From: Alphaproteobacteria bacterium
GTDB taxonomy: Bacteria; Pseudomonadota; Alphaproteobacteria; Micavibrionales; Micavibrionaceae
Direction of reading: 5' to 3'
DNA length: 64,000 nt
Assembly: GCA_002690045.1 (NCBI GenBank)
Contig: NZDE01000011.1
Span: forward strand, 1 to 64,000
In this document: in pieces, positions 11,731 to 31,734 of the stretch
How positions within the stretch are numbered: position 1 is the stretch's first letter
Layout of the letters: each line of letters begins with the position of its first letter
Notes under the pieces: model-generated
Told to the model about the DNA's origin: nothing
The model's database searches: none
The model's input: the letters and a program-made list of their open reading frames with translations, nothing else
Made by a program: the position numbers and the translations under genes

Positions 11731-12645
11731 ATGGGGCGTAACATTTATAGACCTATTCGCGATAAAAAAATCGGTATATTTGCACCGTCTTCACGCATTG
11801 ACCAAGTAAGGTTTAATGAAGGCGTGGAGCTTTTGCACAATTTCGGCTTTGAAACTGTTGTTTCAGAACAGTGCTATTTAGAACTTGGGCAAAGCGCAGG
11901 TTCGCATGAAGAAAAACTTGATGCTTTGCATGGTTTGCTGTCTGATAATTCCGTTGGTATGATTATGGCTGCGGGCGGTGGTAATCGCGTCTTCCACATA
12001 TTAAATAGTATTAATTATGACGGTTATGACTTAACAGATAAGTTTTACTGCGGGTATAGCGACTCCACGGCACTTCTGTCTAGTTTTTATACAAAAAAGT
12101 CTATGTATGGCATATATGGCCCAATGGTGCAGAACCTGCCTAACTTAACGCCTGAGGATTTAGTTTATTTTATAGAATTAATATCTGGTAACGCCTGTGA
12201 CTATGATTTTGAAGAACATGCAGTCGTTTTAAAGCAAGGTACATCAACAGGGCACTTAATTGGCGGTACACTATCAATGTTACCATGTTTAACAGGCACA
12301 GATTATTTGCCTAAAATTGACGGACATATATTGTATATTGAAGACTGCAATGAAGAATTAAGCCGTATTGATCGTATGCTTGCGCATTTAAAAAGTGCCC
12401 TGCCCTTTGACCGATTGGGCGGGCTTATCATTGGACAGTTTAAAAACTTAACAGATACAGGGCGTCCTTTCGGCTTTTCCTTAGAGGACATTATCAGTGA
12501 GCATATTGATGTTATTAATGGCCCAGTTGTTATTAATGCGCCTATAGGCCACGGCAACCGTATGAAAGCGCTGCCTTTCGGTGTTAAAGCAACATTAAAT
12601 GCGAATGATAAAAAACCACATTTAATTTTTAATTTAGAAAATTAA
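11731..12645 (+). CDS. S66-family LD-carboxypeptidase
   Basis: 304-aa serine peptidase of the S66 family, which trims murein tetrapeptides (LdcA) or cleaves microcin C (MccF). The nucleophile serine lies in CGYSDSTALL (Ser110), the acidic residue in LYIEDCNEE, and the histidine in APIGHGNRMKALPFG. Arrangement and length match LdcA. There is no signal peptide, as expected for the cytoplasmic murein-recycling enzyme. There is no clear ribosome-binding site. It converges with the NTF2-like gene, overlapping by 4 bases. Confidence 0.88.
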   Translation: MGRNIYRPIRDKKIGIFAPSSRIDQVRFNEGVELLHNFGFETVVSEQCYLELGQSAGSHEEKLDALHGLLSDNSVGMIMAAGGGNRVFHILNSINYDGYDLTDKFYCGYSDSTALLSSFYTKKSMYGIYGPMVQNLPNLTPEDLVYFIELISGNACDYDFEEHAVVLKQGTSTGHLIGGTLSMLPCLTGTDYLPKIDGHILYIEDCNEELSRIDRMLAHLKSALPFDRLGGLIIGQFKNLTDTGRPFGFSLEDIISEHIDVINGPVVINAPIGHGNRMKALPFGVKATLNANDKKPHLIFNLEN

Positions 12646-13085
12646 CCAAAAATCTTTTTCTTACCTTTGCTGAAAAGCCAGCGCATTAATGGGTGTGCTG
12701 CCCAAATAGTGGATGCAGAATCCCAGAAATCGTCTTGGGCGATTATGATATTGTTATGATCAAAGGTAATTTCGCTCATACCTTCTAGTGAAGCCATATC
12801 ATCATGCAAGCGGATATGCCATTTAATATAGACCTTATAATCATTTGTATTGCTGTATAAAACATCTGAAACAGTAACTTTCAGTCGTTCGGCAGAGCTA
12901 CACAGAGTCCTTAACAGTTGTTTGCGTTGATCTAGGCTGCCTTGTATGAAGAATGGATCTTTAAAGCTAGCTGCCGGGGATATATGTTTGTCAATTAATG
13001 GCAAGTTGCGAAGCGACATACGCTCAAGGAAGCTTTTATATTCAATTACAGCTCTAACGAGCGCTTTATTTGGCTCTTTTTTCAT
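12642..13085 (-). CDS. SnoaL/NTF2-like family protein
   Basis: 147-aa protein with a single NTF2-like cone fold suggested by the pattern: an N-terminal helix, a segment SFKDPFFIQGSLDQRKQLLRTL, beta strands (LKVTVSDVLYSN, YKVYIKWHIRL) and SEITFDHNNIIIAQDDFWD. Such alphaproteobacterial proteins match nuclear transport factor 2 or SnoaL-like models, and no enzyme activity can be assigned. The basic C-terminus (SKGKKKIFG) is notable. Confidence 0.65.
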   Translation of the reverse strand: MKKEPNKALVRAVIEYKSFLERMSLRNLPLIDKHISPAASFKDPFFIQGSLDQRKQLLRTLCSSAERLKVTVSDVLYSNTNDYKVYIKWHIRLHDDMASLEGMSEITFDHNNIIIAQDDFWDSASTIWAAHPLMRWLFSKGKKKIFG

Positions 13086-13178
13086 TTCGTTAACTAAACT
13101 TGGTTATCATCACTTGAAATTAATTTTGTTTCATCTTATTTATAACGCGCGAATATAGGTCAATAAAGAGATAATATT

Positions 13179-13523
13179 ATGACGTTTGTTGTTACTGATA
13201 TATGTATTAACTGTAAATACACTGACTGTGTAGAGGTTTGTCCAGTGGATTGCTTCTATGAAGGGGAAAATATGCTCGTCATCCATCCTGATGAATGTAT
13301 CGATTGCGGCGTATGTGAGCCAGAATGCCCTATTGACGCAATTGTCCCTGATATGGATGAAAAGGCCGAAGAGTTTTTAGAGCTTAACCGTAAATATTCT
13401 GAAGAAGCAAATTGGCCGGTTCTGACAATCAAGAAAGATGCGCTACCTGAAGCGGAAAAATATAAAAATGTTGAGAATAAATATCCTGAATTTTTCTCAG
13501 AAGAACCTGGTGAAGGTGATTAA
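13179..13523 (+). CDS. fdxA: FdxA-type 7Fe ferredoxin
   Basis: 114-aa electron carrier. The first cluster motif is [17 protein letters not shown] (for the 3Fe-4S site and one ligand of the other cluster), and the second is [14 protein letters not shown] (4Fe-4S). The C-terminal extension ([21 protein letters not shown]) is typical of FdxA. It sits just upstream of carD, an arrangement I regard as common in alphaproteobacteria. The ribosome-binding site is AAAGAGATAATATT. Confidence 0.95.
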
Positions 13524-13830
13524 GGTCGCCTAGTTTATGGGGCCCACCATATTTAACATATTGTTATTTCTTGTAAAATTACGTGTGAATTTTTTCGTTG
13601 AAAATTGACCGTTTTTTTGGTATGGTAACAATCATTGCTAACCGAAAAGCTTTTGCATAATACCTCTCGGTCGACGTATTATCAACCACTTAAGGCTGTT
13701 TTTTAATAAACTGCTTTAAGCAAGTTCGCAATACTGCAATATCAATATAGCAAATTATTTTTGTGGGTATTTTCACAAATACTCAACAAGGATGTTTTGC
13801 GCTAGCGAGAAGTAACGAGGTACTAAAAAC
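13524..13830. other. Intergenic region fdxA-carD
   Basis: 307 bases without a gene. It holds a candidate carD promoter near 13605-13632 and an imperfect hairpin (CTTAAGGC with GCTTTAAG, about 13688-13720) in the probable long carD leader. No ORF with a ribosome-binding site is seen, and no strong terminator follows fdxA, so read-through into carD is possible. Confidence 0.5.
13605..13632 (+). promoter_or_regulatory. Candidate carD promoter
   Basis: A TTGACC -35 hexamer at 13605-13610 is followed after 16 bases by AACAAT (13627-13632) as a weak -10. This would give a 5' leader of almost 190 bases before carD. The -10 matches only four of six consensus positions. Confidence 0.4.
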
Positions 13831-14391
13831 ATGGCAAATAATCAAGCAAGTTTTAAAGAAGGTGATTACGTAGTATACCCAGCACATGGTGTAGGTCAAA
13901 TTGAGGGTATTGAAACACAAACAATTGGCGGTGCGGAAATCATGCTATACGCAATTTCCTTTGAAAAAGACCGCATGCGTTTAAAAGTTCCTGTCTTTAA
14001 GGCTGCCAATGCCGGTTTGCGTCGTCTAAGTACGCATGAGCGTATGAAAGACGCACTAAACACGCTCGAAGGCCGTGCACGTATTCGCCGTACAATGTGG
14101 TCACGTCGCGCACAAGAATATGAAACAAAGATTAACTCAGGCGACCCTGTGTCTATCGCAGAAGTTTTGCGTGACCTTAAGCGCCGTACAGCGGATAGCG
14201 AACAGTCTTACAGTGAGCGTCAAATTTATCAATCAGCGCTAGAACGTCTTGCACGTGAAGTTGCTGCCCTTGAGAGTATCACAGAAGAGCAAGCATCACT
14301 TCGCCTAGAAGAAATCATGGGTGTTCCGCAGTTGGTTAATGAATTTGACCTTGATGATGATATCGAGGAAGAAGAAAAAGAAGCTGCATAA
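13831..14391 (+). CDS. carD: CarD-family transcription regulator
   Basis: 186-aa RNA polymerase-binding regulator. The N-terminal RNAP-interaction domain begins FKEGDYVVYPAHGVGQIEGIETQ and continues with ISFEKDRMRLKVPVFKAANAGLRRLST. The helical C-terminal domain, which contacts promoter DNA in the family, covers about residues 75-165, and an acidic tail (EFDLDDDIEEEEKEAA) ends the protein. It is followed by a strong intrinsic terminator at 14423. Confidence 0.95.
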   Translation: MANNQASFKEGDYVVYPAHGVGQIEGIETQTIGGAEIMLYAISFEKDRMRLKVPVFKAANAGLRRLSTHERMKDALNTLEGRARIRRTMWSRRAQEYETKINSGDPVSIAEVLRDLKRRTADSEQSYSERQIYQSALERLAREVAALESITEEQASLRLEEIMGVPQLVNEFDLDDDIEEEEKEAA

Positions 14392-14422
14392 ATGCAATTT
14401 TGTCTATGATTTTATGGTTTTT

Positions 14423-14454
14423 AAAAGCACCGCCTAGTTTCGGTGCTTTTTTTA
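14423..14454 (+). terminator. Intrinsic terminator of carD
   Basis: A perfect 10-bp stem, AAAAGCACCG with CGGTGCTTTT, encloses an 8-base loop and is followed by a T run. It begins about 30 bases after the carD stop codon. Confidence 0.92.
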
Positions 14455-14508
14455 TTGCTATTTTTTAGCAATCAAATTATACATAAAAAAAATACATTGG
14501 GAGGCATC

Positions 14509-14841
14509 ATGAAATATAATGAAGATTTAAGAGTACTAGCAGGAATAGCTGGTGTTGGCGCGTGTTTAGCTTGGCCAATAACTGCGGCTTCAATGCTTGT
14601 TGGTGGCTATGTTGGCTATAAAGTGTCAGATAAAATAGCACAAAAAGTGTACGGGCCGCGTGATGTTGGTGGCGTATTCCCAGCTGCAGCTCTTGTACTT
14701 TCGATGACGTTTGCTTCGGCGGGATTAGCAACATATGGCGCTCATACAGCTTTGGAAAAGCTTGAAGAAGCTGAACCAACACAAAAAACCTCGCAGCCTG
14801 TGGTGCAAGTTAGCCCTGCATATAACCATCAGCTTACATAG
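14509..14841 (+). CDS. Small membrane protein with glycine-rich helices
   Basis: 110-aa hypothetical protein. The start at 14509 has a strong GGGAGG site 4 bases upstream, so the longer frame from 14443 is rejected. Two hydrophobic segments (about residues 9-40 with GIAGVGACLAWPITAA and GGYVGYKV, and about 55-80) are rich in small residues, like a glycine-zipper membrane protein. The C-terminal 25 residues are polar. I see no family assignment. Confidence 0.6.
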   Translation: MKYNEDLRVLAGIAGVGACLAWPITAASMLVGGYVGYKVSDKIAQKVYGPRDVGGVFPAAALVLSMTFASAGLATYGAHTALEKLEEAEPTQKTSQPVVQVSPAYNHQLT

Positions 14842-14920
14842 GCTGTATTTTATGATATAGTTTTAGAAGTGCGGATTCTTTCTGTCCGTATTTCATTTCT
14901 TACTCAAAACTATCTCTTAT

Positions 14921-15772
14921 ATGTGCTATTGCCGCAGTAACAAAGATTCAATCGTTAATATAAATGCCCGTGGACGCATTTGGGCAATACCTGCCCTGCA
15001 CGCAAATATTAATGCCTTGGTAAATATTCACGATCAGCTATTAGAGCATTTTGAAGCTGGTGATAAAATTATATATTTGGGTAATTACACTGGTCACGGT
15101 GACGCGCCTGTAGAAACCTTAAATGAGATTTTAACTTTCCGCCGCTTGATTTTGTCATTTAGCGGAGTTTTCCCGAATGATCTAGTTTACCTGCGCGGCG
15201 CACAGGAAGAAATATTTGAAAAATTATGGCAGCTACATTTTGCGCCAGATGCTGAAAAAGTCCTTGTCTGGATGCTTGGTAATGGGCTGTCCCCTACTTT
15301 GCAGGCTTGTGGCATTGACCCGCATGATGCGATAAATGCTGTTCGTTACGGTTCAAATTACATGTCGCAGTGGATAAACAAGACCCGCCGTACCATCCGC
15401 TCCAAGGTCGTGTACGATGAATTTTTTATTAATATGAAGCGTGCTGCTACAGCGTCTTATACGGAATATAACCAAGATGATGGGCAAGACCATCAATATC
15501 GCCTGTTGTTTGTTAATGCCGGCCTGTCTCCTGACAAGATTTTAAATGATCAGGCAGATGCTTTTTGGTGGGGCGGTGATGTGTTTGATAAGCTAAAAGA
15601 TCCCTATGAGGATTTTGATGTTGTTCTTCGTGGGTATGACCCTAAGCATCGCGGTATATATATTCGTAAACATTTTGCGACTTTAGATAATGGCAATGGC
15701 TTCGGTGGAGATTTAATCTGCGCGGCTGTAGGGCATAAAGGCGATATACTGCATTATTTAGAAGCAGCATAA
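14921..15772 (+). CDS. Degenerate PPP-type metallophosphoesterase (pseudophosphatase)
   Basis: 283-aa protein whose layout follows bacterial Ser/Thr protein phosphatases, but with the metal ligands replaced. Expected GDIHGN reads PALHAN; expected GDYxDRG reads GNYTGHG; expected RGNHE reads RGAQE; expected HAG reads NAG (FVNAGLSPD); expected GHT reads RGYDP. Only the first-motif His survives. The rest of the scaffold (YLGNYTGHGDAPVETL, DNGNGFGGDLICAAV) is retained, so the fold is likely kept while catalysis is probably lost. It lies 107 bases upstream of rpoH in the same orientation. A regulatory or binding role is inference. Confidence 0.7.
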   Translation: MCYCRSNKDSIVNINARGRIWAIPALHANINALVNIHDQLLEHFEAGDKIIYLGNYTGHGDAPVETLNEILTFRRLILSFSGVFPNDLVYLRGAQEEIFEKLWQLHFAPDAEKVLVWMLGNGLSPTLQACGIDPHDAINAVRYGSNYMSQWINKTRRTIRSKVVYDEFFINMKRAATASYTEYNQDDGQDHQYRLLFVNAGLSPDKILNDQADAFWWGGDVFDKLKDPYEDFDVVLRGYDPKHRGIYIRKHFATLDNGNGFGGDLICAAVGHKGDILHYLEAA

Positions 15773-26565: not shown

Positions 26566-29500
26566 ATGGCTGCTAACGCATCAAAAGATTTTAACAATAA
26601 TGCTGAATATTCAGCGCTATACAAGCGTGACGACTTACCATCTTTCTTTGGTTTAAACCAAGATCTATTCCACAATAAACAGCGTGAAAAGCGGACAAGT
26701 GTTACGTACTTCCCAAGTACAGGTTCCATCCAAGGTGTTGGCGCATTCGTTGAGCATAAAGATGATGGCAGCATAACATTAAAGATTGAACACTGGCTGC
26801 ACGAACCAAATAATAAAAATACACGCACCCCATTCCTTACACTTAATTTTAAGCCGCAAGATAAGAAACAAAGTACATTAGCCCTTGCAAGCGCTAAACT
26901 GCAAAACAAAAGCTTAAATGTAAATGATCCAAAAGTCGTCGCGCAGATCGAAGCCATGTATACAGAACTTGCGCAAGATTTGCGTAACGAACGTATTCCG
27001 CCAAATTTGATGGAGGCTGCCGCCGAATATAAATTCAAAACAGCAGCCATGCCCGGCATTTTTAAAACAGGCGCCGCTAAAAATGCATATACGCGCGCAG
27101 CAGGCCGCCCACAACGTACACTAGATATTCCAACCGACTACTTAGACAGCTTACTTGGTGTTGATCAGGAAGATACGCTTATAAGCGGTAAAGAACTGCG
27201 CCGGCGCTCAGTCCTTCGTAACCCTGAAGATAAAAGCAGCCAAGTTGTACAAGAACTTAGCTTTCGCCGCGGCAACACAGCGCGTGATAAGAAAACCTAT
27301 TTATCCGCAAATATAAGCTCTTCAAAGGGCCACGTGTCAATTGATGAAGGTAAGTCATCAGAGCTTTTCAATTTAGTCTTGCGTCCAAAGAACCGTGCGG
27401 CTGTTAGTGATGATAAGGCCATAACATCCATTAAGTCACTGACGATATGTGGTGCGAGCCTAGATAATAAAGACCACAAGGACCTTGTCCGCGGCTTGAA
27501 CTTTGTGCGTGACTTTACCGTCCCGACCCTTGCTGGCGTGCCTACTGATCCGCAAGAAATTATTCGTTACACGCACTTACAAGAAGAATTATCGCCCTTG
27601 CCTGAAATGGAAAAAGGCGAAAATTCACAAGTCTTTATCCGCGCTGTCGGCGGCAACCCGACGGACATTCACGTGAAGCATGAAGAAGAAGGCATTGGTG
27701 CGAACACATGGCATTACCATGTGCGCGAGAAAAACAGCAATGGCGGCATTGATGAAATTAATTTCGGTATTGATGCAGGTATTAAGCCGCTAAACACCAA
27801 GAAGACAGGTTATGATGGGTTCTTCTCATATCTAGGTGATTTCTTTGCGCACCGTACGAACGATAAGCACCGTCCTAAATTTCCAACTAAAGATTGGTTG
27901 ATTACCGAACGTCATATTGACCACATCAATGGCCTCGCTTTTGCCATTATGTCAGGGTACAAGATTGATACTGTTCACCTTTCTGAAACGTCAAAAGATG
28001 AGCTTATATCTCTTCTAAAATCGAACCGCGTTAAGCAAGAATGGTATCCTGAGTTCCACATTATTGAGCCAAATGAAGAGTTTAATATTGGTAGCGTCAA
28101 AATCAAAGCCATTGAAACACCACACTCGACCAAATCATATGCCTATCACCTCACCTTCCCGAATGGGACAAAGCATATGCATTTCGGGGATTCTAAGCTT
28201 TCACCTGTTGTTACACATGGTAAAGCGAGTGAAGAGGAATTGCTTGCTCAGCTTGAAGAACTAGGCCCCGTTGAAAGTGCGTTAATTGACTGTACGCGCA
28301 TTACACAAGAAGACGAAGCAAAGCCCGAAGATGACGTCGCGCTAGAAATTTTAGGTGATGTGATGTCTCAAGAAGGTAAGAATATTGTATCTTCGCAAAT
28401 CGGCTCCAACTTCCCGCGTCTACTTAGTAAGCTTGCTGTTGCAGGTCGTACTGGCCATGATATGGTTCTTTTTGGTCAGGCAATACACCGCGCGCGCAAG
28501 CAATTGAACATTAAATGTTTTGAAGATGATGAACGCACCAAGTTTATCGACCTTCTGCAAAAACTTGAATATTCACAGGAAGTCATTGACCGTGTGCGCT
28601 TATGTGAGAATACATTTAATGGCGTGTCAAAAGCTTTGGGTGTTGATGTTGTTAACTACTCCGCAAGCGGCAAAAAAGCACATAGCATTTTGAATAATGA
28701 ATCCCTTAAACCAGGTTGGCTTGTATTCACGGGTTCTCATTTTGAACCTAAATCTTGGATGCATCGTTTTGTGTACCGCACAGAACCCGCGCTTAAAAAT
28801 ATTCAGCATGAAAATTATTGGGTACTTGGCTCGCAATATGCCATACCGGGTAATGAACGTAATTATAACTACGGCTATGCAGATTTAGAGCGCCGTGGCT
28901 TTAATGTAATTCACCGCCATACATCGGGGCACGATGGTCAAGCTGCTTGGAAGAAGATGCTTGATAAAATCAAACCTAAATACGGTATAACTGGGCACGG
29001 TGACCAAGTGCAGCGTAAGGCAGGTACAGACTTCCTTGAAAAAGAAGGCATTGGCCCAGTTAACCCAACTGAACAAGATTTTGTTCAGGTTAAGCCGGGT
29101 AAGCTTTCAATTGAAGCGCAACACCCATCAATTCGTATTTATTATCGCTACCAACGCCCTGAAGACCAATATTACGGCTCAGTTGAGGATATTGATTTCT
29201 ATGCATCAAAATCACAGCCTGCACTTCGCAGTGAGGCTGGTGATTTAATTCGTGAAGCGCATGACCTTATGGCGCATCCGACCAATCAATTTAATGCAAA
29301 ACGTAAATCAGCATCAACATTGGTCGCAAGCGCTGGTGATGTTGAGGACTTTATGCTGAATATTACCGAAGCTAATCTTATCCCGAAAGAGCACCGTGTG
29401 ACGATGTCCCTTCCCGATTGGAAGCTTAGCAATGGTATTCTTAATGAATTTATGTATGACGTTGAAACGACTGGCTTAGGCCCTTATGCGCGCGTCCACC

Positions 29501-31353
29501 AATTCGCAGCTGTGCGCCGTGACACGAACGGCAAAATCATTGAGAACATGAATATCCGCTGTAAACTAGATAAACATATTCTGTTTGATTTGGATGGGAT
29601 GATTGCCACAGGCACGATGCCCGAAAACCTATATAAGGACGGCTATTCGCAGCGTCAATTCTCTATGCTGATGTATGACGCGTTTGAACGCATGCAATAT
29701 GTTGATGACAAGACCCGCGATAGTAAGAAAATTTATATCGACCAGTCAAAGCCACCTGTTGACCCACGTGTACGCGTTAATGCACAAAGGAAGGAAGATG
29801 CTGACAATCCACCTAGCGATGCGGAATTGAAGAAACGTAGTCGTCGTGTGCATCCATATTTGAAGAAGTCTATTAAGGCCATATTCAATAAAAAGGCTGC
29901 GCCGAATCCAGAAGACCTTAAACAAGCACGCGTTAAAGGCCTTGTTGGCGGCTATAACAATACAGGATTTGATGACCCGCGCATTCGTATGGAATGTTTT
30001 GCGGCTGGCTTCGCAAGCTTCTTCCCTACGAACCAATCTATGCGCCGCTATGATACGCGTAATATTGCGCGAGCGTTCTACCATTTCCGCCCTGACCGCT
30101 TTAAGGTTAATACAAAAGGCGAAAACAACCCGCATTGTAAACCAGAAGAGCGCGATATGCTCGACTTCACAGTCAAGGGCTTGGCACTTGCCAATGGCCT
30201 GAGATACAACGAAGACGATGCACATGATGCGGATTATGATGTGAAACTACAGTTCCGTTTGCTCGATACAATGCGCAATATGGATCCAGAGCTGTACACA
30301 CAGATGATTATGAACACGGATAAGAGCCAAATTAAAGGTTTCCTTCGTGGGTCAACCAACGGCCATGTCTATCAGCGCCCATTGGTTAGTTACGTTGATA
30401 ACCGCGCCCTTAACGCGCAGCGCCATTTAGGTTTAATGGTTGGTACGTCAAATATCCCATCTTTGTGCAACAAGGCCGTCATGTTTAATGCTGAGGATTT
30501 TGACCCGAAAGACTTTAATGATATTAGCGCAAGTGATATTGCGGAGATTATGTCTGATCCAAACCATCACTTGCATAAAGCGTTTAATATCATCGACATT
30601 TCTAAAAACCCAATTGTTCTGGAAGCTGATCGTGCCGTACGTTTAGGCACACGTATTCCTTTGGAACAAATTAAAGAACGTAAGCGTTATATGGAACGTA
30701 ACCCTATATTGGCAGAAAAAATAATTAAGGCGCTTGAAAATGCGCGCCTTCTGCCAGATGGTTTACCGTATCATACAATTGAAAAACGCTTCATTAACAT
30801 GGCAAGTTTTAGGCTGTCACCAAATGATAAAGCTGTAGCTAATTTATTCCAGCCTGTGCCAGAAGAGTTTGAGAATGAGCAATTTGCACGTTCACTTAAC
30901 AAGCAACGTGCACAAGCGCTTGATGGCATTGAAATGGATGAATTACGCGAACGTTATGTATTGCAGCTCTATAATGACCCTCTAGGCCGTGAATACCTAC
31001 ATGCGGACGATCAAAAATACGCCCGCGCTATTCAGCGTGCTTATTTCTGTGGTGAGTTAGAGGTCAGCAATCCGTTCCAGTCTCCAGTATCCATCTATCA
31101 GCTTAGAAAGCAGGTTGAAAAAGCCAAGGTGAAATATGCTGATGATATTGAAAACAATACCGTTACAGGACAAATTATTAAGCAAGCCGAAGCTATTGTT
31201 GAAGAACGAATCAATGACGCTGATTTATTGATTACTGCTGAAGATCGCGAAGTTCTGAAGATGTATAGCCCGCGTAAGCAACGAAAATATCGTGTTCCAA
31301 CTGCACGAAACGATAATGCATTTCCAAAAAATATTAAAAAGGGGCTGGGCTAA
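26566..31353 (+). CDS. Fusion of RNase J-like beta-CASP nuclease and exonuclease I
   Basis: 1595-aa two-nuclease protein. Residues 1-345 are unassigned. About 355-830 follow RNase J: opening GG with IGANTWHYHV and FGIDAG, metal motif ITERHIDHINGL (Glu448 in place of the first His of HxHxDH; His450, Asp452, His453 kept), His520, Asp542, then beta-CASP segments FTGSHFEP (about 721-728), SGHDGQ (His789) and ITGHGDQ (His811). About 960-1500 follow E. coli ExoI throughout: YDVETTGLGP (Asp965, Glu967), GYNNTGFDDPRIR (Asp1136), AHDADYDV (His1220, Asp1225), and the C-terminal ISKNPIVLEADRA and YNDPLGREYL regions. A basic insert (about 1055-1120) lies between ExoI motifs I and II. All DEDDh residues are intact. 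The reading frame is unbroken and uses codons like its neighbours. I know of no described protein with this layout. Confidence 0.88.
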   Translation: MAANASKDFNNNAEYSALYKRDDLPSFFGLNQDLFHNKQREKRTSVTYFPSTGSIQGVGAFVEHKDDGSITLKIEHWLHEPNNKNTRTPFLTLNFKPQDKKQSTLALASAKLQNKSLNVNDPKVVAQIEAMYTELAQDLRNERIPPNLMEAAAEYKFKTAAMPGIFKTGAAKNAYTRAAGRPQRTLDIPTDYLDSLLGVDQEDTLISGKELRRRSVLRNPEDKSSQVVQELSFRRGNTARDKKTYLSANISSSKGHVSIDEGKSSELFNLVLRPKNRAAVSDDKAITSIKSLTICGASLDNKDHKDLVRGLNFVRDFTVPTLAGVPTDPQEIIRYTHLQEELSPLPEMEKGENSQVFIRAVGGNPTDIHVKHEEEGIGANTWHYHVREKNSNGGIDEINFGIDAGIKPLNTKKTGYDGFFSYLGDFFAHRTNDKHRPKFPTKDWLITERHIDHINGLAFAIMSGYKIDTVHLSETSKDELISLLKSNRVKQEWYPEFHIIEPNEEFNIGSVKIKAIETPHSTKSYAYHLTFPNGTKHMHFGDSKLSPVVTHGKASEEELLAQLEELGPVESALIDCTRITQEDEAKPEDDVALEILGDVMSQEGKNIVSSQIGSNFPRLLSKLAVAGRTGHDMVLFGQAIHRARKQLNIKCFEDDERTKFIDLLQKLEYSQEVIDRVRLCENTFNGVSKALGVDVVNYSASGKKAHSILNNESLKPGWLVFTGSHFEPKSWMHRFVYRTEPALKNIQHENYWVLGSQYAIPGNERNYNYGYADLERRGFNVIHRHTSGHDGQAAWKKMLDKIKPKYGITGHGDQVQRKAGTDFLEKEGIGPVNPTEQDFVQVKPGKLSIEAQHPSIRIYYRYQRPEDQYYGSVEDIDFYASKSQPALRSEAGDLIREAHDLMAHPTNQFNAKRKSASTLVASAGDVEDFMLNITEANLIPKEHRVTMSLPDWKLSNGILNEFMYDVETTGLGPYARVHQFAAVRRDTNGKIIENMNIRCKLDKHILFDLDGMIATGTMPENLYKDGYSQRQFSMLMYDAFERMQYVDDKTRDSKKIYIDQSKPPVDPRVRVNAQRKEDADNPPSDAELKKRSRRVHPYLKKSIKAIFNKKAAPNPEDLKQARVKGLVGGYNNTGFDDPRIRMECFAAGFASFFPTNQSMRRYDTRNIARAFYHFRPDRFKVNTKGENNPHCKPEERDMLDFTVKGLALANGLRYNEDDAHDADYDVKLQFRLLDTMRNMDPELYTQMIMNTDKSQIKGFLRGSTNGHVYQRPLVSYVDNRALNAQRHLGLMVGTSNIPSLCNKAVMFNAEDFDPKDFNDISASDIAEIMSDPNHHLHKAFNIIDISKNPIVLEADRAVRLGTRIPLEQIKERKRYMERNPILAEKIIKALENARLLPDGLPYHTIEKRFINMASFRLSPNDKAVANLFQPVPEEFENEQFARSLNKQRAQALDGIEMDELRERYVLQLYNDPLGREYLHADDQKYARAIQRAYFCGELEVSNPFQSPVSIYQLRKQVEKAKVKYADDIENNTVTGQIIKQAEAIVEERINDADLLITAEDREVLKMYSPRKQRKYRVPTARNDNAFPKNIKKGLG

Positions 31354-31677: not shown

Positions 31678-31734
31678 TACACACCCTCTATTACCGCCGT
31701 TTGTCCGGAGAATTCGTTTCTCCGGACTTTTTTT
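31678..31734 (+). ncRNA. Candidate small RNA
   Basis: Transcription from the promoter at 31643-31671 would start near 31678 and end at a strong intrinsic terminator: stem GTCCGGAGAA/TTCTCCGGAC (10 bp), loop TTCGT, then seven T. The 5' part (containing CACCCTCT and ACCGCCG) is single-stranded and pyrimidine-rich, with CCTCT complementary to a Shine-Dalgarno AGAGG. There is no reading frame of useful length. No RNA family is recognised. Confidence 0.5.
31703..31734 (+). terminator. Strong intrinsic terminator without an upstream ORF
   Basis: 10-bp perfect stem, 5-base loop and seven T on the plus strand. The closest upstream plus-strand gene already ends in its own terminator at 31340, so this one probably serves a separate short transcript. 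Confidence 0.85.

Follow-up and report, generated by a model that had tools for sequence, protein, structure and literature searches.

The DNA analyzed here, referred to as the window, is a 64,000-nucleotide stretch of contig 11 of a 2.88 Mb Micavibrionales genome. A single open frame of 1595 codons runs through part of it without a stop (Table 1), and the opposite strand of the same segment is full of stops. The encoded protein consists of an N-terminal domain, an RNase J-like part and an exonuclease I (ExoI)-like part, and the named records closest to it come from Micavibrio and alphaproteobacterial MAGs. The flanking genes, named by eye, are a tRNA/rRNA methyltransferase-like gene on one side and a divergent methyltransferase-like gene on the other. 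An upstream gap of 162 bases and a possible terminator downstream make the fused gene in the window look monocistronic.

Table 1. Positions of the fused gene, its parts and residues, and associated features. Coordinates are those of the window unless a locus is given.
Feature	Position	Strand	Basis
Whole gene, 1595 aa: N-terminal domain, RNase J-like and ExoI-like parts in one frame	26566..31353	+	Translation; full-length homologues; purifying selection
N-terminal domain, residues 1-351	26566..27618	+	Profile; AlphaFold2; common to all fused members; without known family
First copy of ~170-residue unit, residues 12-164	26599..27057	+	hhalign of the two halves; helix/strand order in model
Second copy of ~170-residue unit, residues 181-347	27106..27606	+	hhalign; helix/strand order in model
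RNase J-like part (metallo-beta-lactamase and beta-CASP), residues 352-944	27619..29397	+	Profile to PDB RNase J1, E = 5e-41; TIGR00649, E = 3.6e-17
Metal motif TERHIDH, residues 447-453: His450, Asp452, His453; first His is Glu448	27904..27924	+	Alignment of 14 fused members
His520, metal ligand	28123..28125	+	Invariant in 14 fused and 19 split proteins
Asp542, metal ligand	28189..28191	+	Invariant in 14 fused and 19 split proteins
Beta-CASP TGSHFEP motif, residues 722-728; Gly723 and Glu727 invariant	28729..28749	+	Alignment of fused members
Ser787-Gly788-His789 motif, invariant	28924..28932	+	Alignment of fused members
His811-Gly812, RNase J C-terminal metal His, invariant	28996..29001	+	Alignment of fused members
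ExoI-like part, residues 945-1595	29398..31350	+	Profile to PDB ExoI, E = 7e-24; hhalign to ExoI alignment, E = 1.4e-42
Asp965 and Glu967, first D and E of DEDDh, invariant	29458..29466	+	Fused alignment; 19/19 split proteins
Asp1136, invariant	29971..29973	+	Fused alignment; 19/19 split proteins
His1220 and Asp1225, invariant	30223..30240	+	Fused alignment; 19/19 split proteins
Likely intrinsic terminator, 10-pair stem with 6 G-C, run of 7 T	31703..31727	+	Pattern match only; match count near chance
PF06189 5'-nucleotidase beside type-2 fused gene	L028:6456-7598, L030:6284-7315, L033:6166-7236, L066:13013-14053, L067:5720-6748

A search covering 95 relatives was followed by a profile search of 142 Micavibrionales genomes, 20 of which carry homologues with the same fused layout. 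These belong to 13 genera in three families; the gene is a full-length open frame in 19 of them and is cut by a contig end in the remaining one (G001). Two of the assemblies are closed chromosomes, one being that of Micavibrio aeruginosavorus ARL-13 (G053, 2,481,983 bp), for which the same length was published (PMC3189940). Among 385 genomes sampled across the class, none outside Micavibrionales had a fused form. Between two species of the window's genus, the fused proteins share 80% amino acid identity, and their genes differ by 0.16, 0.10 and 0.51 at codon positions 1, 2 and 3, with dN of about 0.15 against a saturated dS of about 2.2. The fused gene is under purifying selection across all three parts. 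The original prediction had allowed that the joining region might be an assembly error. This is excluded, since the layout recurs in independent assemblies, and the selection spanning all three parts likewise speaks against a misassembly or misread frame that links two unrelated genes. Such an artefact, ruled out by the independent homologues, has practically no probability left.

The RNase J-like part matched TIGR00649 and PDB RNase J1 (E = 1.7e-8) as a single sequence, and the match to PDB RNase J became far stronger with a profile of 14 family members (Table 1). Regarding the C-terminal dimerisation domain, the best match of this profile ends at residue 442 of the 555 residues of RNase J1. 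The fused protein scores 62 bits on TIGR00649, for which the curated cut-off is 400 bits; canonical RNase J of Micavibrionales also stays under this cut-off (327-397 bits). In an alignment of 14 fused members, some of which are only 19-22% identical to the window protein, His450, His453, His520, Asp542, His789, His811, Asp965, Glu967, Asp1136, His1220 and Asp1225 are invariant, and Asp452 is nearly so. Hence, the RNase J metal ligands (HxHxDH, the next His and Asp, and the C-terminal His) are invariant or nearly so in the fused family. The landmarks previously listed for the window protein were all found, namely His520, Asp542, FTGSHFEP (721-728), SGHDGQ (787-792) and ITGHGDQ (around 808-814), and an HxHxDH-like motif, which reads TERHIDH (447-453) and lacks the first His. 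This position is Glu448 (27907-27909) in the window's genus (the window, G001 and G002), and is His in all aligned fused members outside it. The substitution is unusual; a metallo-beta-lactamase site might tolerate it, and an altered or weaker RNase J site in this genus could be its consequence. In a tree of RNase J sequences, canonical RNase J formed its own clade (100/100) with the fused proteins outside, the split proteins described below formed one clade, and the two fused types formed two groups, which leaves room for a joint origin of their RNase J parts. The tree also set apart from canonical RNase J another kind of stand-alone RNase J-like protein (~480-580 aa), which was observed in family f3 of the order and once in family f5 (L039-L045, L054-L058).

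The ExoI-like part matched PRK11779 exodeoxyribonuclease I (E = 1.1e-21) and PDB ExoI (E = 1.2e-7) as a single sequence, and PDB ExoI again with the profile of 14 family members. It aligned with a probability of 100% to profile positions 10-477 of an ExoI alignment headed by E. coli SbcB, so that the SH3-like and C-terminal regions are covered, as had been proposed. All five DEDDh residues named in the original prediction are present. The protein scores 77 bits on NF008746 (curated cut-off 260 bits), and the tested stand-alone ExoI genes of the order are likewise below this cut-off. The profile of this part also matches RNase T. No other family gave a better match to either half than RNase J and ExoI, and the predicted single-frame fusion of an RNase J-like nuclease with a full ExoI is thereby upheld. 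In a quick tree, the fused proteins formed one clade on a branch apart from E. coli ExoI and the stand-alone ExoI proteins. ExoI is usually regarded as gammaproteobacterial, and its occurrence here had been called unusual. This was half right: the fused genomes tested contain no separate ExoI match, leaving this part as their sole ExoI-like match, but stand-alone ExoI exists in other families of the order. Such stand-alone genes of alphaproteobacteria were seen in f3 and f5 (L046, L048-L053, L105, L106).

The original prediction left undescribed the N-terminal domain, as well as the split operon with its third gene and the 5'-nucleotidase partner that are treated below. Residues 1-351 matched no Pfam, NCBIfam or PDB sequence family. 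The two halves of this domain align with each other (hhalign, 97.5%, E = 7e-12), and the order of helices and strands appears twice in its AlphaFold2 model (pLDDT 83), which confirms a tandem duplication of about 170 residues. A Foldseek search with the model gave no match at E <= 0.001, and the best VIA-align Z of 4.5 means little; such absence of a fold match is not proof of a new fold. The domain is kept in all fused members and occurs in a diverged form in the split RNase J-like proteins.

Two types of fused protein, about 20% identical to each other, were distinguished, of which type 1 includes the window and Micavibrio. Several members of both types have the gene at a common chromosomal site next to prmA and fatty-acid genes, a pattern that speaks for old vertical inheritance; in the window's genus, the gene lies elsewhere. 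In Micavibrio (g23), the fused gene is immediately preceded, on its own strand, by a gene for a protein of 210-310 aa whose family was not recognised (c8) (L024, L025, L068, L069, L070). The loci selected for annotation are flanked by housekeeping genes (prmA, thiolase, gltB, bipA, thrS and dnaE), and no defence island was found at those examined. No relatives were detected among IMG/VR viral contigs or INPHARED phages, and PLSDB plasmids matched only ordinary RNase J; a phage or plasmid gene was rejected on these grounds. Canonical RNase J was detected in all 23 genomes tested, including that of the window, and XseA and RecJ in 132 and 131 of the 142 Micavibrionales genomes, respectively. Since these genomes have separate canonical RNase J, RecJ and ExoVII, the fused protein represents an added function, and its identification as a housekeeping RNase J or a RecJ/ExoVII substitute was ruled out.

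Weak matches to the N-terminal domain led us to a split form, in which a gene for the N-terminal domain and RNase J-like part (1013-1262 aa) adjoins a gene for an ExoI-like protein (1088-1351 aa). These two genes are usually preceded by a third one encoding a protein of about 750-900 aa, designated c5, and every c5 gene with complete flanks adjoins both an RNase J-like and an ExoI-like gene (L071-L077, L083-L096, L098). The same order was observed in one genome outside Micavibrionales (G358), and another such genome (G447) has the order RNase J-like, ExoI-like, c5, with a shorter RNase J-like protein (670 aa) whose start lies at the edge of the extracted stretch. The split and fused proteins are homologous in the RNase J-like part (99.9%, E = 2e-34), the ExoI-like part (100%, E = 9e-42) and the N-terminal part (hhalign, 99.2%, E = 8e-20). 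Furthermore, HxHxDH, the next His and Asp and both late His residues are retained in 19/19 split RNase J-like proteins, and all five DEDDh residues in 19/19 split ExoI-like proteins. The c5 gene is present in 22 of the 142 genomes and the fused gene in 20, with no overlap, for which the chance is 0.026 if the genomes are treated as independent, though they are related. This mutual exclusion, together with the homologous parts, suggests that the fused protein and the three-gene operon do the same job. For c5, no Pfam or PDB match was obtained, a single weak local match to PHROGs (E = 0.0016) is unconvincing, and the AlphaFold model is weak (pLDDT 63) and gave no fold match. A nucleoside deoxyribosyltransferase-like repeat, guessed for c5 from its sequence pattern, was not supported. 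The operon of G067 contains an additional open frame of 299 codons, which overlaps the beginning of its ExoI-like gene (L089:11206-12105 and 11955-15704).

A 5'-nucleotidase of family PF06189 directly follows the fused gene in six type-2 loci, five of which were scanned (E = 1e-44 to 1e-55). This nucleotidase was detected in 16/20 fused genomes and in 2/104 others outside f3, a family left out of the count because it has its own strong copy (Fisher p = 1.3e-14, an optimistic value as the genomes are related). Both non-fused genomes with the nucleotidase carry c5, and the four fused genomes in which it was not detected are 85-92% complete. In the window genome (G000:C11:650598-651527), Micavibrio and another three genera (G020, G071, G061), the nucleotidase gene is not linked to the fused gene yet co-occurs with it, indicating that the association is not only one of adjacency. 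The unlinked copies have no clear conserved neighbours beyond the genus. One nucleotidase was compared with PADLOC and matched the phage-defence candidate PDC-S08 (E = 1.8e-49).

The chemistry of RNase J and ExoI releases 5'-mononucleotides, which are the substrates of such a nucleotidase. We infer the polarity and products of the fused protein from the biochemistry of these two enzymes: the RNase J-like part would digest single strands starting at the 5' end and may also act as an endonuclease, and the ExoI part would degrade them from the 3' end. The two-ended nuclease machine that had been suggested is therefore plausible. Both activities would yield 5'-mononucleotides, which the co-inherited nucleotidase would turn into nucleosides, and the N-terminal tandem-repeat domain probably serves in positioning or choosing the substrate or in keeping the assembly together. 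In the sister genomes, the operon would do the same with the two nucleases separate beside the ~800-residue c5. No signal peptide is evident by eye in the fused protein; extracellular digestion of prey nucleic acid thus lacks support, and a location in the cytoplasm appears probable. The substrate may be RNA, single-stranded DNA or both, and the role may lie in catabolism, defence or repair. We tentatively favour a cytoplasmic two-ended single-strand exonuclease feeding the nucleotidase (probability roughly 0.4), most likely for disposal and recycling of nucleic acid that enters or is released in the cell. The invariance of the active sites over long divergence (down to 19% identity) counts for the two-ended exonuclease, and the co-occurring nucleotidase with its six adjacent loci for the feeding of nucleotides. 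On the other side, Glu448 in place of the first metal His counts against the two-ended exonuclease in the window's genus, and the ARL-13 genome paper reported no known nucleotide transporters (PMC3189940), which counts against the favoured reading.

The strongest competitor, possible but clearly less probable, is defence against phages or plasmids, in which invading nucleic acid, single-stranded or processed, would be destroyed by the two nucleases, with nucleotides removed or the system regulated by the nucleotidase or c5. The PDC-S08 match of the nucleotidase suits this equally well, and the ExoI part matches the PADLOC model of RT-associated SbcB (PDLC03817, E = 3e-20). Within genera, the gene also occurs patchily, in a single genome of each of g35, g6, g8 and g29, and has the nucleotidase alongside; the two architectures are mutually exclusive, and c5 is a large third component. 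However, the examined neighbours are housekeeping genes rather than defence islands, the site beside prmA is kept in members of both types, viral contigs and phages hold no relatives and plasmids only ordinary RNase J, and no PADLOC system model covers the fused protein, the partial matches being those to the SbcB-like model and PDC-S08. A nuclease of DNA repair or recombination, whose two parts resect or clear single-stranded DNA in the manner of beta-CASP DNA nucleases and ExoI, is unlikely. E. coli ExoI does act on single-stranded DNA, and the tested fused genomes have no other ExoI match. In addition, the RecJ3/RecJ4-aRNase J complex of the archaeon Haloferax volcanii, which pairs RNase J with a RecJ-type partner, acts on RNA and single-stranded DNA and matters for survival of DNA damage (PMC10470531). 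Against this, the fused gene is an accessory one of patchy occurrence, whereas nearly all genomes of the order have RecJ and ExoVII, and a co-inherited 5'-nucleotidase is not expected of a repair enzyme. Still less probable is an additional degradosome-like machine for the turnover of particular RNAs, whose ExoI half would have adapted to RNA. In its favour, the RNase J of most bacteria works on RNA, as do DEDDh relatives such as RNase T, matched by the ExoI-part profile; on the other hand, canonical RNase J is already present and the neighbourhood has no pointer to a specific RNA.

With disposal and recycling thus placed ahead of defence, repair and RNA turnover, the chances seem evenly balanced that the fused protein with its 5'-nucleotidase and the c5 operon are two interchangeable forms of a previously undescribed nucleic-acid degradation system of Micavibrionales. 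One assembly would attack both ends of its substrate under the control of the new domains, in the service of a predator's use of nucleic acid or of a new immunity. Within a lineage to which obligate predators belong, two exonuclease families of opposite polarity always occur together, in one protein or in adjacent genes, which makes the system directly testable. It suggests how such bacteria might handle much nucleic acid, or else a new immune system; it supplies two so far unnamed protein families, the N-terminal repeat domain and c5, and the fused form may be useful for removing single strands from both ends with one enzyme.

The original prediction knew of no described protein joining these two nucleases, and we likewise found no description of the fusion, or of its homologues as a known enzyme, in the open-access literature. 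The fused protein resembles RNase J (TIGR00649 / NF047419) in its metallo-beta-lactamase and beta-CASP core, with all metal and motif residues bar the one substitution in the window's genus, but scores far lower, branches apart from the canonical RNase J of the same genomes, and adds an N-terminal domain and a second nuclease. It resembles exonuclease I SbcB (NF008746, PF00929 and PF08411) in the DEDDh residues and in homology throughout the ExoI alignment (positions 10-477), but its score is again low, and the ExoI part resides within a larger protein on a separate branch. The SbcB associated with the reverse transcriptase of DRT defence shares the ExoI-like domain, but there is no reverse transcriptase in the fused protein or among the annotated neighbour genes. 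Exonuclease VII (XseA/XseB) degrades single-stranded DNA from both ends and is thus similar to the attack proposed here, but its family and subunits are unrelated, and it is present separately in the same genomes. To our knowledge, the RecJ3/RecJ4-aRNase J complex has no N-terminal repeat domain. This complex is nevertheless the nearest described parallel, since RNase J is paired in it with a second exonuclease, although it is archaeal and built of separate subunits with a RecJ-type partner instead of a DEDDh ExoI (PMC10470531).
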